From an uncultured Trueperaceae bacterium (lineage in GTDB: Bacteria > Deinococcota > Deinococci > Deinococcales > Trueperaceae), in contig CAJXNS010000016.1 of assembly GCA_913057165.1 (NCBI GenBank), positions 1-34,241 on the forward strand: a stretch of DNA of 34,241 bases. The letters run 5' to 3'. Under the pieces are notes generated by a model. It was not told where the DNA came from and searched no databases. It was given only the letters and a program-made list of their open reading frames with translations. Made by a program: the position numbers and the translations under genes. Shown in pieces: positions 3,506 to 13,755 of this stretch (within the stretch, counting starts at the first letter, position 1; each line of letters begins with the position of its first letter).

Positions 3506-5032
3506 TCATCCCGCCGGGTGGTGGCGGTCGTCCCAGCGGGCCCAGACGCTGCCAAACCAACGCGTGGCATGCGCGGGTACGCGCGCGAGTCGGGTGCGCA
3601 CCCCTGCCTGTTCGGCGTCCTCAAGCGCGTCGGCGATACCGGCAGCGGCACTCCAATCAACCCGTCCGCAACCGCCAAGGTCAATGATCAAGTCCGTGGC
3701 ATCTGGATGGCTGGCGAGCAGGTCTGGCAGGCGCTCTTCGAGTTGCTCTTGGCTGCCGTACCAAAGCACCCCTTCCACCCGTACGGTGATGATCGTGCCG
3801 ACGGTGGTGACGTCGACGCGAACGTTGCGTTCACGGCGCAGGTGCTGACCGGCGGCAAGGATGACACCGATGAGGACGGCTTCATCGATCCGTGGTGAGA
3901 GAGCAAGGGTCAGCAAGAACGTGCCGGCCGCCACCACGCCTTGCGAACGGCTTGCCTTGGCGATCTGCCATAGCTCCTGTGGGCGCACCAGACTCCAGGC
4001 GGCGGCGAGAATGATGCCCGCCAGGGTGGCCAGCGGGAGCGCTTCGAGGGCTCCAGCCAGCGGGAGTAGGGCGAGGAGCACGAGCCCGGTCACGAAGCCG
4101 CTCCAGCGGGAGGTGGCACCCAGCAGGCGGTTGAGGGCACTGCGGGAGAAGCTGGCGCCGACAGGAAAGCCTGAGAACAGTCCGGCTGCGACGTTGGCGA
4201 CCCCTTGCGACACGAACTCTCGTCCAGGCCGCCAGGGCCGGCGGGCCTTCGCAGCAAAATCACGACCGATGGAGGCCGCTTCTCCAAACCCGACAAGCGC
4301 CAACACCAGCGCCCCAACCAGCAGGCCGGGGGCGGCTTGCCACGGTAACGCCAGGTTGACGGCTGGTAGGGCGGACGTGACCGGCCCAACCGTGGGGCCG
4401 CTGTAGCCGACCGCTTGGGCGGTCAGAATCGATGCAACCACGGCGATGAGCACGCCGGGAATGCGCGGGTCAAGACGGCGGGCCAAGACCACCACCGCGA
4501 TGGTGACGACCGCAAAGGTGATCGTGAGGGGCTGCCAGTCACGGGTTCGCACGACAGCACTGGCGATATCGCTCAGGCCTAGGCCGCGGGCTTGCACACC
4601 AAGCGCGGCGGGCAGTTGGGACGCCACAATCAGCAGGGCTGCAGCGTTCAGAAAGCCGATCCGAACCGGACGGGATAGCAAGTAAGCAAGCGGGCCCCAA
4701 CCGAACAGGCCGATCGCCATACGGATCAGACCCACCAACAGCGCCAGCAACGCCGCATGCGCGATCCAGGCATCGGTGCGCGGTTCGAGCGTGGCGCTCA
4801 GAATGCCGAACGTCAGTAGGCTGGTGGTGGCGACCGGGCCGACCTGTAGTTCTTTCGCAGATAGAAGCGGGGCGGCCAGCAGCAAAGCCGGCACGATGGC
4901 GTACAGGCCGTGCACGGCAGGCAGACCGGCCAGTTCGGCGTACGCCATGGCTTGCGGTAAAGCCACCAAGGCAACCGAGAAGCCGGCAAGCACGTCACGC
5001 AAACTGGGCCAGCTCAACCGTAGGGCGTTCAC
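3506..5032 (-). CDS. SulP family anion transporter with STAS domain (second copy)
   Basis: Inner-membrane SLC26/SulP transporter (508 aa) for sulfate, bicarbonate or a related anion. It has the family signature near the N-terminus (AGFSVALVALPQAMAYAELAG), about a dozen hydrophobic segments to roughly residue 380, and a C-terminal STAS domain (VRVEGVLWYGSQEQLEE, then DATDLIIDLGGCGRVDWSAA). A TTG at 5041 would also open the frame. I prefer the GTG at 5032 because it lies 7 nt after the extended -10 TGC-TACCTT at 5040-5048, the leaderless pattern seen at other genes here. It lies downstream of the carbonic anhydrase gene and upstream of the phosphohexomutase. It is shorter and clearly diverged from the other SulP protein, so this is not a fresh duplication. 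Confidence 0.88.
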   Translation of the reverse strand: MNALRLSWPSLRDVLAGFSVALVALPQAMAYAELAGLPAVHGLYAIVPALLLAAPLLSAKELQVGPVATTSLLTFGILSATLEPRTDAWIAHAALLALLVGLIRMAIGLFGWGPLAYLLSRPVRIGFLNAAALLIVASQLPAALGVQARGLGLSDIASAVVRTRDWQPLTITFAVVTIAVVVLARRLDPRIPGVLIAVVASILTAQAVGYSGPTVGPVTSALPAVNLALPWQAAPGLLVGALVLALVGFGEAASIGRDFAAKARRPWRPGREFVSQGVANVAAGLFSGFPVGASFSRSALNRLLGATSRWSGFVTGLVLLALLPLAGALEALPLATLAGIILAAAWSLVRPQELWQIAKASRSQGVVAAGTFLLTLALSPRIDEAVLIGVILAAGQHLRRERNVRVDVTTVGTIITVRVEGVLWYGSQEQLEERLPDLLASHPDATDLIIDLGGCGRVDWSAAAGIADALEDAEQAGVRTRLARVPAHATRWFGSVWARWDDRHHPAG

Positions 5033-5039
5033 GTCCGGC

Positions 5040-5048
5040 AAGGTAGCA
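5040..5048 (-). promoter_or_regulatory. Extended -10 promoter of the second SulP gene, probably leaderless
   Basis: TGC-TACCTT on the minus strand, ending 7 nt before the in-frame GTG at 5032. It lies in the short gap after the carbonic anhydrase stop codon. It would let the second SulP gene and the phosphohexomutase be expressed apart from the upstream sulfur operon. Confidence 0.5.
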
Positions 5049-5064: not shown

Positions 5065-5658
5065 TTACTGGGACAGCAGTTCAACCTCGCCGGTGTGCAT
5101 GCGGTAGACCGCCGCTGCAACACGCAGGCGACCTTCATCAATGAGCGGCTTCAGGACGGCATCTTCCCGCAGTGCAGCCGCTTCGGCGCGGGTGTGTAGG
5201 AGCACGGCGCGGTTGACGACGTCTTCGTCACCCTCGTCAGAAAGGGCGCGCCGAACGGGCACCGCCAGATCACGCACCAGGGGTTGGGAGAGGTCGCCGC
5301 CGGTGCGGACCGCTTGCAACGTCTCGGTCACCGCCCCGCAGCCTTCATGCCCGAGCACGAGGATGAGTGGCGTGCCGAGATGGACCGCCGCATAGCGAAC
5401 GCTGGCGCGTACCTCGTCGCTGAGGACATGCCCCGCGATACGAATGCTGAAGACCTGCCCCAAGCCCACGTCAAAAATGACGCTTGGCGGGACGCGCGAG
5501 TCGCTGCATCCGAGGAGGGTGACACAAGGATGTTGTTCTTCAAGGAGTGCGTCGCGGTCGGTAGGCGACTCGTGCGCGTGCTCCATGCGGCCTTCAATAA
5601 ACCTGCGGTTGCCATCCAGGAGGCCCTGGAGGACGTCATCGGGTTTGGCGTCCGTCAC
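5065..5658 (-). CDS. Beta-class carbonic anhydrase
   Basis: Zinc enzyme (197 aa) for CO2/bicarbonate interconversion in the cytoplasm. The beta-class motifs are complete: GNRRF near residue 16; CSDSRVPP with Cys51, Asp53 and Arg55; and GHEGCGAV with His104 and Cys107. The three zinc ligands and the Asp-Arg pair are therefore present. The start is a GTG whose GTGA overlaps the TGA of the preceding SulP gene, so it is translationally coupled. It sits between two SulP transporter genes, and SulP/carbonic anhydrase pairing is known in bacterial bicarbonate uptake. That makes bicarbonate a serious alternative to sulfate for the neighbours. Confidence 0.95.
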   Translation of the reverse strand: MTDAKPDDVLQGLLDGNRRFIEGRMEHAHESPTDRDALLEEQHPCVTLLGCSDSRVPPSVIFDVGLGQVFSIRIAGHVLSDEVRASVRYAAVHLGTPLILVLGHEGCGAVTETLQAVRTGGDLSQPLVRDLAVPVRRALSDEGDEDVVNRAVLLHTRAEAAALREDAVLKPLIDEGRLRVAAAVYRMHTGEVELLSQ

Positions 5659-7379
5659 GTGCCTGGCTGCAGTCCGAGCGACGCAAGGGCTGCATCGACG
5701 GACATGTATTGAATGTCATCGCCGTATTTGTGGTTCCAGCCAGCCCGGTCAAAAAGGTCCCGCACGGGCCCTTTCACGCCGGCCAATAGCACGCGAACAC
5801 CTTGGGTTTTAAACGCGTCCATCCGGTCGCCGAGCGTGTCGATTGCGACACCGTCGACATCGTTCACACCGCTGAAGTCAAGGACGATCGCTTCTAAGTC
5901 AGGGCGTTCAGCCAGCACATCGTTCATGCGGTTTTCAAGCGCAGCAGCATTGGCGAAGTACAGGCTTGCGTCCACCCGGTGGATGTACACACTCGGCCAC
6001 GTTTGGGCATTGGGGTAGCGCGCAATGTTGCGGTACACGCGGTCGCTTTCAAGCCAGCCGAGTTCGGCGCTGTGCGGCCAGGCGCTACGGACGACAAACA
6101 CCAGCAAGGAGAACCCGACACCGGTCAGGATGCCGGTTTCAATGCCAAGCGTCAGCGTCGCCGCGAAGGTCACAAGCAACGTTGCCGCGTCGGCTTTTTT
6201 GATCTTGAAGAGGTGCGCTGGCTCTTTGACGTCCACGAGACCGAACACCGCAACCATCACGATGGCCGCCAACACGGCGCGTGGCAGGTAGTAGAACAGG
6301 TCGGTAAAGAACAACAGCGTGATGCCGAGCAGCGCGGCGGTGACAAGGCCCGCCAGAGGCGTGCGGGCGCCGGCCTGATCGTTGACGGCGCTGCGGCTAA
6401 ACCCGCCGGTGACGGGGTAGCCGCGGAAGAACGCACCCACCACGTTGGCGAACCCAAGGCCGACCAGTTCGCGGTTGGCGTCGATCTTGTAGCGATGCCG
6501 GCTCGCAATAGCTTTGGCGACAGCCACAGACTCCATGAAACTCACGAACGCGATGGTGGCTGCGACGGGTGCCAGCGCCGCGAGGGCGCCCCCCGATAGG
6601 TTCGGTACGCCGAAGGCTGGGAGTCCCGCCGGTACCGTGCCGACGATGGCCACGCCTTGGTTGTGAAGGCCTTGCGACCACACCACCAGGCTGGACACGA
6701 TGACCACCAGCAGCGGCATCGGGAATTTTTTGCTGATGCGCTTGCCGATCATCAGGGCAGCAATGGACGCCAGACCGATGAGTAGGGTGGGCAGGTGCGT
6801 CCCGCCGATTTCGCGGGCGGCGTTGCTGAGAAGGATGACGACGTTGGATTCACGTGGGATATCCACACCGAGCAGGTGCTTGAGCTGGCTCAGACCGATG
6901 ACGATCGCAGCCGCGCTGGTGAAACCACTGATGACGGCATGCGACAAGAAGTTCACCACGAAGCCTGCGCGCAGGAGCCCCAGGGCGGCTTGAATGACGC
7001 CGACCATGAGCATAAGGAGTGCAGCGAGCGCAATGAACTCAGGGCTTCCGGGCTCGGCGATAGCGCCCACACCGGCCAGGGTGAGTAGCGAGACGATGGC
7101 CACCGGCCCGACCGCCAGTTGGCGTGACGAGCCGAACAGGCTGTAGATCGCCAGCGGGATGGTGCTGGCGTACAGGCCGACGACGGGGGGTAGGCCGGCC
7201 AGCATGGCGTACGCCATGCTTTGGGGGACGAGCATGACCGCAGTGACAAGCCCCGCGATCAGGTCGCCGGGCAGGTCATCGCGGAGTTTGTAGCGCCGAA
7301 GCCAACCGGCGATCGGTAGCAGGCGCTCAAGGAGCGGGGGGGAACCCCCCGCACCTGCTGCGGTGGGACTACTCGACAT
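5655..7379 (-). CDS. SulP family anion transporter with STAS domain (first copy)
   Basis: Membrane transporter (574 aa) of the SLC26/SulP family. A soluble N-terminus of about 35 residues is followed by the family signature (AGLVTAVMLVPQSMAYAMLAG), a long multi-pass domain to about residue 430, and a C-terminal STAS domain (VDASLYFANAAALENRM, then DLEAIVLDFSGVNDVDGVAIDTLGD). The ATG lies inside the end of the rhodanese gene (11-bp overlap), with GAAGGA 5 nt upstream, which argues for co-translation. The 3' end overlaps the carbonic anhydrase start by 4 bp. Codons 8-15 contain a G7/C6 inverted repeat that could fold at the mRNA start. The substrate is open: sulfate, sulfite or thiosulfate from the sulfide oxidation context, or bicarbonate from the carbonic anhydrase. 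Confidence 0.93.
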   Translation of the reverse strand: MSSSPTAAGAGGSPPLLERLLPIAGWLRRYKLRDDLPGDLIAGLVTAVMLVPQSMAYAMLAGLPPVVGLYASTIPLAIYSLFGSSRQLAVGPVAIVSLLTLAGVGAIAEPGSPEFIALAALLMLMVGVIQAALGLLRAGFVVNFLSHAVISGFTSAAAIVIGLSQLKHLLGVDIPRESNVVILLSNAAREIGGTHLPTLLIGLASIAALMIGKRISKKFPMPLLVVIVSSLVVWSQGLHNQGVAIVGTVPAGLPAFGVPNLSGGALAALAPVAATIAFVSFMESVAVAKAIASRHRYKIDANRELVGLGFANVVGAFFRGYPVTGGFSRSAVNDQAGARTPLAGLVTAALLGITLLFFTDLFYYLPRAVLAAIVMVAVFGLVDVKEPAHLFKIKKADAATLLVTFAATLTLGIETGILTGVGFSLLVFVVRSAWPHSAELGWLESDRVYRNIARYPNAQTWPSVYIHRVDASLYFANAAALENRMNDVLAERPDLEAIVLDFSGVNDVDGVAIDTLGDRMDAFKTQGVRVLLAGVKGPVRDLFDRAGWNHKYGDDIQYMSVDAALASLGLQPGT

Positions 7380-7686
7380 CCAGTCCTTCCATCACCCACG
7401 CTTGCGTGCCGCCCGCCAAGTTCGCAAGGCCCGTTTTGCCCTGTTGGGCGAGCCAGGCGCATGCTTGACCGGAGCGGTTGCCGCTGGCGCAGACGAAGAT
7501 CGCGCCGTCGGGAATGTCGTCAAGGTTGTCCGGCACGGTGCTGAGCGGCATGGGTTTGGCGCCTGGGATGTGGCCCATGTCGAACTCGAACGATTCACGG
7601 ACGTCAATCACGGTGGCGTTGCCGTTTTCCATGCGTTCGCGGAGCTCGTGCACATCAATATCGACGTAATCGAAGTCTTGGTTCAC
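7369..7686 (-). CDS. Single-domain rhodanese (sulfurtransferase)
   Basis: Small cytoplasmic rhodanese-fold protein (105 aa) that carries sulfane sulfur on a cysteine. It has VIDVRESFEFDMGHIPGA, the active-site loop CASGNRSGQAC and the C-terminal LAGGTQAW motif, so it looks catalytically complete. An upstream ATG at 7701 gives 5 more residues. I chose the GTG at 7686 because AAAGGA lies 6 nt before it, whereas the ATG abuts a hairpin and has no ribosome binding site. It follows the persulfide dioxygenase gene by 64 bp and overlaps the SulP gene by 11 bp, so it should take or pass persulfide sulfur in the same pathway. Confidence 0.92.
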   Translation of the reverse strand: MNQDFDYVDIDVHELRERMENGNATVIDVRESFEFDMGHIPGAKPMPLSTVPDNLDDIPDGAIFVCASGNRSGQACAWLAQQGKTGLANLAGGTQAWVMEGLDVE

Positions 7687-7705
7687 GGTCGGTCCTTTCA
7701 TACGT

Positions 7706-7750: not shown

Positions 7751-9148
7751 TTACGCGGTGGCGTGCGCCTGCCGGTAGGCGGAAAAGCCGCCGGCCAGTT
7801 CGGTCACGTTGCCGTAGCCGTGGTGGCGCAGGACGCTCGCGGCCACAGCGGCACGGCCGCCGGCTTCGCAGTGCGTGATGATGTGCGCGTCTTTCGGGAT
7901 GTCGGCGAGGTGCCAGCGAACGCGGCCTGCGTGCAGCTGGTGCGCGCCTTCGACGTGCGCGCCGTGGAACTCGTTGGCGGTTCGCACGTCCAGGACGTAC
8001 GCGTCTTTCTCGGCGGCTTTGAACGCTTGCGCATCGACGGTGGGGATGGCTTCACGCTCGAATGGCGTCAAGGTGGTGACGAACCCAGCGAAGTTGTCAA
8101 TGCCGGTGTAAGCGAGCTTGTCGCGCATGTCGCGGGCTTGCTCGGCGTCAGCGGCGAGCACCACGATCGGTTTGGTGTCGCTTTCCGGGTCGATGGCGTA
8201 ACTGGCGTACGTCGCGAAGCTGCCGCCGTAAGGGACGAACAGGGCGTTGGCGACGGCATCTTGATGCCAGTCTTTGACCGAGCGGGTGTCGACGAACAGG
8301 ATGTCGTTCTGCGCCAAGCGTTCGGCGGTTTCTTCGGCGTTGAGTTCTTGAATGTCGCCACGTTCACCCATGACGGCGGGGCCTTGCTTGTTCCAGCGTT
8401 TCATGCGCCCGAAGTAAAGCGGGGCGTCGGGCTGGCCGTCGAGAAGCGCGTTCGTGAAGCCTTCTTCGTCGTTGTTCTTGACGTAGTCGCTCCACCAGGC
8501 GGTGTTGCGTTCGTAGCCGATGGTGGTGCTGGGGACCGCACCGAGGCTTTTGCCGCAGGCGGAGCCGGCGCCGTGACCGGGCCAAACTTGGATGTGGTCT
8601 GGTAGTGAAAGGAAGTGGTCGCGGAGGCTGGCGAACAGCTGTTTGGCGCCAACGAAGCGGGTGTCCACGCCGCCGGCTGCTTCGTCGAGCAGGTCGGGGC
8701 GACCGACATCGCCCACGAAGACGAAGTCACCGGTGAGGTACGCCATCGGTTCGTCGGTGGTGGCGCCGTCGATCACCAGGAAGGACAGGTGTTCGGGGGT
8801 ATGGCCGGGGGTATGAACCGCGCGTAAGACGACGTTGCCGACCTTGATTTCGCTGCCGTGGTAGAGCTTTTTGACGTCAAACCCGTACTTCCAGTCTTCG
8901 TTACCTTCGTCGCTCGCCCAAATGCGCGCGCCGGTGGCGGCGGCGATTTCGCGGCTTCCGGAGAGGTAGTCGGCGTGGATGTGCGTTTCGGTGACGTCGG
9001 TGATGGTGAGGCCTTGCTTGGCGGCTTCGTCTAAGTAGGCTTGGACGTCGCGGCGTCCGTCAACCACGATCGCTTCGCCGCTGGCTTGGCAGCCGATGAT
9101 AAATCCGCCTTGGGCGAGGTCGGGGTCGTACATGTGTTTGAAGAACAT
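7751..9148 (-). CDS. CstB-like persulfide dioxygenase-sulfurtransferase (MBL fold plus two rhodanese domains)
   Basis: Iron-dependent metallo-beta-lactamase-fold enzyme (465 aa) fused to rhodanese domains, the architecture of staphylococcal CstB, which turns low-molecular-weight persulfide into thiosulfate. The MBL domain (about 1-240) has THIHAD (His56, His58, Asp60), HTPGHTPEH (His112, His116), Asp141 in TGDFVFVGD and His192 in PGHGAGSACG. The first rhodanese domain (about 270-360) has no active-site Cys. The second (about 370-460) has Cys427 in HCEAGGRAAV. The only cysteines are 20, 198 and 427, which to my recollection match the three of CstB. The start at 9148 has AAAGGAG 7 nt upstream. 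It heads the operon with the rhodanese and SulP genes, and its promoter carries a CsoR/CstR-type operator. Confidence 0.92.
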   Translation of the reverse strand: MFFKHMYDPDLAQGGFIIGCQASGEAIVVDGRRDVQAYLDEAAKQGLTITDVTETHIHADYLSGSREIAAATGARIWASDEGNEDWKYGFDVKKLYHGSEIKVGNVVLRAVHTPGHTPEHLSFLVIDGATTDEPMAYLTGDFVFVGDVGRPDLLDEAAGGVDTRFVGAKQLFASLRDHFLSLPDHIQVWPGHGAGSACGKSLGAVPSTTIGYERNTAWWSDYVKNNDEEGFTNALLDGQPDAPLYFGRMKRWNKQGPAVMGERGDIQELNAEETAERLAQNDILFVDTRSVKDWHQDAVANALFVPYGGSFATYASYAIDPESDTKPIVVLAADAEQARDMRDKLAYTGIDNFAGFVTTLTPFEREAIPTVDAQAFKAAEKDAYVLDVRTANEFHGAHVEGAHQLHAGRVRWHLADIPKDAHIITHCEAGGRAAVAASVLRHHGYGNVTELAGGFSAYRQAHATA

Positions 9149-9203: not shown

Positions 9204-9232
9204 GATATACCCCCATGGGGTATGTGCGTCAA
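9204..9232 (-). promoter_or_regulatory. Sigma-70-type promoter of the sulfur operon
   Basis: On the minus strand there is TTGACG (9232-9227), a 17-bp spacer and TATATC (9209-9204), about 56 bp before the dioxygenase ATG. This is the most canonical -35/-10 pair in the window. The spacer is filled by the inverted repeat listed separately, so a bound repressor would block RNA polymerase directly. Confidence 0.75.
9207..9223. promoter_or_regulatory. CsoR/CstR-type operator
   Basis: ATACCCC-CAT-GGGGTAT: a perfect 7-3-7 inverted repeat. Operators of the CsoR family, including the persulfide sensor CstR, are described as A/T-flanked runs of C facing runs of G, of the form ATACCC...GGGTAT. The site lies between the -35 and -10 of a promoter driving a CstB-like gene, exactly the target expected for CstR. 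No CsoR-family gene is present in this window, so the repressor must be encoded elsewhere. Confidence 0.75.
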
Positions 9233-12389: not shown

Positions 12390-13592
12390 TTAGGCGATGC
12401 CGCGCAGCATGCCGTGCCAGTACATCTGCGGCAGCAGATGCCGCTTGAGCATGTACATATCCCAACGCTGCTTGGTCTGATCGACCGGGAAGGTCGGCTT
12501 GTACTTGTTGCCGTACTCAAACTCTGCGAGGACCAGCTTGCCGTAGCCGGTCACCAGCGGGCATGAGGAGTAGCCTTCGTACGATTTCTGGCCCTGCTTG
12601 CCGGCACGGTGCGCCAGCAGTTGTTCCACCAGCACCGGTGCCTGCTTGCGAATGGCCGCGCCTGTTTTCGCGGTCGGCACACCGGCGTTATCGCCAAGCG
12701 CCCATACGTCTGGGTAGGTCTTGTGCTGCAGTGTGTGCTCGTCGACATCGGCGAAGCCGGCGTGAGGCCCTTCAGCCACCGCAAGTTTGCTTTCGCGAAG
12801 CACCTTCGGTGCGCGCTGGGGTGGGGTGATGTGGATGAAGTCGTAGTGCATTTCGATCTCACCCGCATCCGGGTCATCGAGGTTCACAAACACCGCGGTG
12901 TCACGCGCTGCGTCAATGCGCACGAGTTCATGACGGAACTTCATGTGCAGGTCGCGCTCTTCGACGATCTGGTTCAGCGTGGCGTTGATTTCAGGCACGC
13001 CCAACATGACTGTGCCTGCGAACCCGCCGGTGATTTGGGTTTTGTCGCGCAAACCGTGCTTCCGTAAGTAGTCGTCGGCGAGGTACATGATCTTTTGGGG
13101 GGCGCCACCGCATTTAATTTGGCCGGAGGGGGCGGTGAAGATCATGTCGCCGCCCTGGAAGCTCTCAAGCGCTTTCCAGGTCGCTTGCGCGCCTTCGGGG
13201 ATGTAGTTGCTGACGACCTTGCCGTTACCGATGGCGTCGCGGGCGCCTTCCACCTTGTCCCAATGCAGTTCAATCCCGAGCGCCATGACCAGTTGGTCGT
13301 AGCCGACGTCGCCGCCTTCTTCAAGGCTGACGGTGTGGGCGTCAGGGTCGATGGAGGCCACCCGGTCGCGAATCCATTCCACGCCGTTCGGGATGAGTTT
13401 CGCTTCATCGCGGCGGGTTTCATCGACGGTCGCGACACCGGCTCCCACCAACGTCCAGAGGGGTTGGTAGTAATGGTCGGTGTTGGGTTCAACGATGGCC
13501 ACACTGAGGTTGCGGTCGGCTCGCTTGAGGCGGGCGGCGGTGGTGATGCCTCCCGATCCTCCTCCGACAATCAGGACGTCGTACTGCTTCAT
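12390..13592 (-). CDS. sqr: Sulfide:quinone oxidoreductase, type II (SQOR-like)
   Basis: Membrane-associated FAD enzyme (400 aa) that oxidises sulfide to a persulfide and passes electrons to quinone. The N-terminal FAD site is DVLIVGGGSGGITTAARL (GxGxxG at 10-15). The protein has just two cysteines: Cys161 in IKCGGAPQKIMYLADDYL and Cys344 in YEGYSSCPLVTGYGKLVLAE, the two redox positions of type II (mitochondrial SQOR-like) enzymes. The second FAD motif is DVWALGDNAGVPTAKTGAA. The C-terminus (WDMYMLKRHLLPQMYWHGML) could be the amphipathic membrane contact. The ATG at 13592 has GAGGAG 9 nt upstream. It lies 3.2 kb from the CstB-like gene, which would use its persulfide product. Confidence 0.94.
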   Translation of the reverse strand: MKQYDVLIVGGGSGGITTAARLKRADRNLSVAIVEPNTDHYYQPLWTLVGAGVATVDETRRDEAKLIPNGVEWIRDRVASIDPDAHTVSLEEGGDVGYDQLVMALGIELHWDKVEGARDAIGNGKVVSNYIPEGAQATWKALESFQGGDMIFTAPSGQIKCGGAPQKIMYLADDYLRKHGLRDKTQITGGFAGTVMLGVPEINATLNQIVEERDLHMKFRHELVRIDAARDTAVFVNLDDPDAGEIEMHYDFIHITPPQRAPKVLRESKLAVAEGPHAGFADVDEHTLQHKTYPDVWALGDNAGVPTAKTGAAIRKQAPVLVEQLLAHRAGKQGQKSYEGYSSCPLVTGYGKLVLAEFEYGNKYKPTFPVDQTKQRWDMYMLKRHLLPQMYWHGMLRGIA

Positions 13593-13755
13593 GGCTTGGC
13601 TCCTCTCGCCATATGAAGGTTTGGCTCTAACGTGAGCCCACTTCCAATTCTGCTGCCCGTGCGCCAACCATCACCCATAGAACCCGTGTATGCAAGGGCC
13701 AATGCGCCTGCCGTATTAGGACATCCGTCCCCACCCATTGTCTTTTGAAAACAGG

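Follow-up and report, generated by a model that had tools for sequence, protein, structure and literature searches.

A predicted CstR-type operator in the promoter of a CstB-like persulfide dioxygenase operon in Deinococcota

The promoter of a CstB-like persulfide dioxygenase gene contains a palindrome, which raises the question of whether a CstR-like persulfide sensor or a copper-sensing CsoR reads it. The window, meaning the whole stretch of 34,241 nucleotides analysed here, reads TTGACG CAC ATACCCC ATG GGGGTAT ATC on its minus strand from 9232 to 9204. This reading confirms the preliminary description of TTGACG-17 bp-TATATC with a perfect 7-3-7 inverted repeat upstream of a CstB-like gene. 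The promoter elements and the genes of the operon are the following.

9227..9232, minus strand: -35 hexamer TTGACG, assigned from its sequence and from a TTGACN that lies 0-4 nt ahead of the operator in the majority of relatives with the site.
9207..9223, ATACCCC-CAT-GGGGTAT on the plus strand: operator palindrome of type 2 (TAC-X9-GTA), predicted binding site of a CstR-clade protein from its 0 mismatches, its conservation in genus and family, and co-occurrence.
9204..9209, minus strand: -10 hexamer TATATC, whose first three bases are common to the operator, assigned from position and conservation.
7751..9148, minus strand: CstB-like persulfide dioxygenase/rhodanese of 465 aa (Pfam Lactamase_B and Rhodanese; full-length match to 3TP9 and 3R2U).
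7369..7701, minus strand: single-domain rhodanese, second gene of the operon (Pfam PF00581), present after cstB in three of four genus mates.
5655..7379, minus strand: SulP-family permease with a STAS domain, third gene (Pfam and TIGR00815 over cut-off), overlapping the rhodanese gene.
5065..5658, minus strand: beta-carbonic anhydrase-like gene (Pfam PF00484), a probable operon member from gene spacing, with a 4-nt overlap with the SulP gene.
3506..5041, minus strand: second SulP-like gene (Pfam PF00916), a possible operon member from gene spacing.

The two hexamers are separated by 17 nt (9226-9210), and the palindrome lies 58 bp upstream of the cstB-like ATG. The earlier claim that the repeat fills the spacer holds for 14 of the 17 spacer bases; three bases (9224-9226) separate the palindrome from the -35 element, and its last three overlap the -10 element. 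A consensus promoter scan did not flag TTGACG-17-TATATC, so the promoter assignment rests on conservation and position. ATACCCCNNNGGGGTAT is present in one mismatch-free copy in the window, where 0.53 matches are expected at up to 3 mismatches. Since the window contains eight perfect 7-3-7 inverted repeats, the repeat alone proves little; the weight of the palindrome as a candidate operator comes from its sequence, position and conservation. Its form, TAC-CCCCATGGG-GTA with two short G/C tracts within the inverted repeat, fits the definition of a CsoR-family type-2 operator, an inverted repeat TAC-X9-GTA that encloses a pair of short G/C tracts (PMC3902906).

The CstB-like protein comprises an MBL domain, a middle rhodanese domain and a C-terminal rhodanese domain, which together span its full length. 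The best matching PDB sequences are 3TP9 (E=1.4e-112) and 3R2U (E=7.8e-89), the latter of which we take to be S. aureus CstB. The cysteine of the GSACGK motif and that of CEAGGR in the C-terminal rhodanese align with those of 3R2U. The protein thus has the architecture that characterises CstB along a full-length alignment with 3R2U, namely MBL, rhodanese homology and rhodanese domains with cysteines in the MBL motif and in the C-terminal rhodanese. In all four genus mates, as in many members of the family, cstB is followed by the SulP gene, with the rhodanese found between them in three mates.

The preliminary description predicted a CstR encoded outside the window, and held that a genome with no CsoR-family gene would speak against it. 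Two CsoR-family (DUF156) genes were found in the genome (1.78 Mb, 95% complete), and one of them is the predicted kind. This CstR-like gene (G000:C74, hereafter C74) is located on another contig behind two YeeE/YedE sulfur-transport genes. Its product scores 75.7 bits against PF02583, above the cut-off, and keeps both cysteines, with a tyrosine replacing the copper-binding histidine (sensor residues C-Y-C). The other gene, C22, adjoins a copZ-like gene, encodes C-H-H at the sensor positions and matches the Thermus CsoR 3AAI (E=9e-33). The surveyed genomes gave 129 DUF156 matches, mainly of the C-H-H (64) and C-Y/F-C (51) types, and C-Y/F-C is kept throughout the CstR clade except in one Cys-less member. 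The CstR-clade protein L151 of genome G007 lacks both cysteines and reads Y-E-G.

In a tree of these proteins, the C74 clade is sister to TTHA1953-like C-F-C proteins from Thermus-like genomes, which match TTHA1953 in cysteine spacing. The clade did not group with a characterised CstR: 7MQ1, the sole CstR reference, falls elsewhere, with low support over about 55 residues. Judged from sequence, the regulator probably works like CstR, with persulfide as its presumed signal, and strict orthology to Firmicute CstR is not claimed. Genera g7 and g5 contain a separate C-A/T-C class of DUF156 proteins (L126, L138, L140, L143, L145, L150), which the tree places, with weak support, nearest to 7MQ1, the CstR of S. 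pneumoniae. The L145 gene of this class lies near a thioredoxin gene.

All five genomes of the genus have a mismatch-free operator in front of cstB, in every case arranged as TTGACG-N3-[17mer]. The absence of the repeat upstream of the orthologous operon in close relatives had been named as evidence against the proposal; it is conserved in the whole genus. At up to two mismatches, the operator is found at cstB in most members of the family and also in three further families, as a rule preceded by TTGACN at a distance of 0-4 nt, and Meiothermus-like genomes (g25) carry two operators flanking one TTGACA. Only the 17-mer at up to one or two mismatches was used in these searches, because a shorter 15-mer motif at two mismatches was at background level (43 sites vs 61 in the control). 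A search of named relatives returned only distant cstB matches, none with the operator. The genus names Thermus-like and Meiothermus-like were themselves inferred; genus g20, of the same order, encodes a CsoR 93-96% identical to T. thermophilus CsoR. The PEPCK of the window is nearest to 1J3B, presumably a Thermus protein. These matches place the organism in Deinococcota, and its family is probably Trueperaceae.

Other arrangements at cstB were also observed. Six loci of g7 and g5 (L028, L037, L038, L039, L040, L044) have a cstB without the operator and share a conserved ATTATGC-N5-GCGCATA-like motif upstream; at L028, L037 and L039 a divergent LysR-type gene is read upstream of cstB. These loci look like a regulator swap. 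Thermus-like g20 loci (L157-L160) have an operator-like GTACCCCCATRGGGTAT in the cstB promoter, with ATACCCCACATGGGTAT at L159. The DUF156 proteins found there were of the TTHA1953-like and copper CsoR types only, and the published TTHA1953 motif does not describe these cstB sites. GTACCCCCATGGGGTAT-type sites precede cstB in Thermus.

Presence of the operator was compared with that of the regulator gene. Of the 28 family genomes with a CstR-clade gene, 27 contain operators at up to one mismatch (107 sites), vs none of the 8 that lack the gene (Fisher p=3e-7). At the cstB promoter, site and CstR-like gene are both present in 28 genomes and both absent in 7; two (G010 and G027) have the gene but no site, and none has a site without the gene (Fisher p=3.5e-6). 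Because the genomes share ancestry and many of them are incomplete, both p values overstate independence. G007, which has the Cys-less clade member and one site, was excluded from the family comparison. Copper CsoR is present in both groups, with and without the CstR-clade gene. Genus g7 shows the same pattern internally, with 3 and 2 sites in its two genomes that carry the gene and no site in the four that lack it; such within-genus contrasts are independent of deep ancestry. The comparison supports the view that the operators track the CstR-like gene and not copper CsoR.

The operator is not confined to cstB. The genome itself contains 4 sites at up to one mismatch vs 0 in a reversed control, and 6 vs 1 at up to two mismatches; five of these six lie at sulfur or thiol genes, the targets besides cstB being a membrane rhodanese, thioredoxin reductase, a YgaP-like protein and yeeE-yeeE-cstR. 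The five genus genomes together have 41 sites at up to two mismatches vs 3 in the reversed control. Each site was read individually, and 37 of the 41 stand in front of sulfur or thiol genes: cstB, membrane rhodanese, trxB, SQR, Grx-like, peroxiredoxin, TlpA-like, two DUF302 types, YgaP-like and yeeE-yeeE-cstR. The four misfit sites have two mismatches each. The operator is thus found upstream of persulfide dioxygenase and rhodanese genes, as is typical of a CstR-type sensor, and the rhodanese promoters have the same TTGAC(G/C)-N3-[operator] geometry. In these rhodanese promoters the -10 element is very near the ATG (L080, L200, L207), and at yeeE the operator overlaps the ATG (L077, L097, L108, L118, L008), so leaderless transcripts are likely.

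The regulon looks smaller in the window species than in its genus mates, because its genome gave no match in a search for a Grx-like gene, a negative that carries little weight on its own, and its peroxiredoxin match is only 35% identical. The SQR gene of the window (12390-13667, minus strand), closest to mitochondrial-type SQR structures, has no operator, whereas the SQR genes of all four genus mates carry it.

Three other explanations of the palindrome may be weighed. Its reader could be C22, the copper-sensing CsoR, in which case the operon would respond to copper. A copper CsoR is indeed encoded in the genome, and Streptomyces copper-CsoR operators are also TAC-X9-GTA with G/C tracts (PMC3902906), so that the motif alone cannot separate a copper CsoR from a CstR-like reader. 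For the same reason, the earlier argument that no copper gene is near was weak, although its conclusion, that copper CsoR is the less likely reader, holds. A better basis for deciding is the co-occurrence, together with the distinct operator of the copper genes. The genome's own copZ-csoR carries a different site, CCCTACCCCCCTGGGGGAGGGG; copper CsoR loci of relatives mostly have CCCCACCCC-N4-GGGGTGGGG-like sites, like the Thermus copper operator, and lack the present operator, while most CstR-clade loci have the present operator and not the copper type. No such operators occur in family genomes that have copper CsoR but lack the CstR-clade gene, and the targets are sulfur and thiol genes. The two Thermus paralogs each failed to bind the site of the other (PMC10318464). 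Membership of the operon in a copper CsoR regulon was therefore rejected, as copper loci carry another operator and the sites are absent from family genomes with copper CsoR only. We regard a copper response as very unlikely, and every sequence test available supports the CstR-type reading that had been favoured.

The reader might instead be the CstR-clade regulator with a different signal, general thiol oxidation or another reactive species and not persulfide. TTHA1953, the characterised sister, loses DNA binding with Cu(II) or H2O2 and not with NaHS (PMC10318464), and the regulon includes thioredoxin reductase and peroxiredoxin. However, the core targets (cstB, rhodaneses, SQR) remove persulfide, ScCsoR and YrkD with the same two cysteines respond to sulfane sulfur (PMC7533328, PMC9918477), and NaHS is not itself a persulfide; such a signal seems improbable to us. 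That the palindrome is a functionless chance inverted repeat in GC-rich DNA, for which the eight perfect repeats of the window might be invoked, is hardly credible: it persists at orthologous promoters throughout the genus and in other families while the flanks diverge, and it is enriched genome-wide over the reversed control. Three observations count against a CstR-like regulator as the reader. G010 and G027 have the gene but no cstB site. The operator-like cstB sites of g20 occur with only a TTHA1953-like protein, for which another motif and no NaHS response have been published (PMC10318464), and the SQR of the window has no site.

We consider it highly probable that the palindrome is the operator of the CstR-like repressor C74, which holds the cstB operon off until persulfide releases it, and which also controls a dispersed regulon. 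From the operator, regulator, regulon and co-occurrence, which sequence comparison supports, we infer binding, repression and persulfide as the signal. At low sulfide or persulfide, the reduced repressor would sit on the operator and cover the promoter between -35 and -10, blocking cstB, the rhodanese and SulP, and probably also the carbonic anhydrase and the second SulP. Rising persulfide would modify or cross-link its two cysteines, and the repressor would leave the DNA. The operon would then be expressed and persulfide removed. The same repressor would control the membrane rhodanese, trxB, YgaP-like and its own yeeE-yeeE-cstR genes; in the genus mates its regulon would extend to SQR, Grx-like, peroxiredoxin, TlpA-like and DUF302 genes.

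Two-Cys repressors of persulfide-removing genes include ScCsoR, YrkD of Bacillus licheniformis and Staphylococcus CstR (PMC7533328, PMC9918477, PMC5480029), and ScCsoR and YrkD lose DNA binding on treatment with sulfane sulfur (PMC7533328, PMC9918477). S. aureus CstR is likewise a CsoR-family protein with two cysteines and no copper histidine, and its target is the persulfide dioxygenase/rhodanese CstB. It probably controls one operon directly (PMC5480029), whereas about ten dispersed operons are predicted in the present genus, and it does not belong to an orthologous clade in the tree. ScCsoR (SCO0620, Streptomyces coelicolor) is a two-Cys CsoR-like protein with the same spacing (Cys37/Cys66) that represses persulfide dioxygenase, rhodanese and transporter genes; polysulfide releases it from its ATACC-N6-GGTAT site at the persulfide dioxygenase gene (PMC7533328). 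Its arms are separated by 6 bases and not 7, its circuit is small and local, and its transporter is a sulfite exporter and not a SulP.

CstR-like control of sulfur genes in a phylum unrelated to Staphylococcus, as the preliminary description proposed, is supported by sequence, but the phylum already had TTHA1953 of Thermus thermophilus, which represses Sox genes (PMC10318464). This protein, by its residue pattern a member of the sister clade, also has two cysteines 29 apart and a dispersed sulfur regulon; it differs in its operator TACNNTACNNNNGTANNGTA, which has no G/C tract, in its Sox targets and in its lack of response to NaHS (PMC10318464). Copper CsoR (TtCsoR, 3AAI), with which C22 belongs, is of the same protein family but has a C-H-H copper site and the operator CCCCACCCCACCTGGGGTGGGG.

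On balance, we lean towards the view that one CstR-clade sensor governs persulfide and thiol stress genome-wide in this branch of Deinococcota. Its regulon would link persulfide oxidation directly with thioredoxin-system genes (trxB, Grx-like, peroxiredoxin, TlpA) as well as with YeeE transport, and the three DUF156 paralog groups of the phylum would each use an operator of their own. What sets this case apart is how broad the regulon is and that it reaches the thioredoxin system. The locus offers a persulfide regulon open to experiment, in a phylum for which the surveyed literature describes CsoR-like sulfur control only at the Thermus Sox genes, and it shows paralogous DUF156 repressors dividing operators within one genome. 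It would also assign DUF302 proteins, YgaP-like membrane proteins and paired YeeE to the persulfide response, and suggests that persulfide sensing may be coupled directly to thioredoxin reductase.
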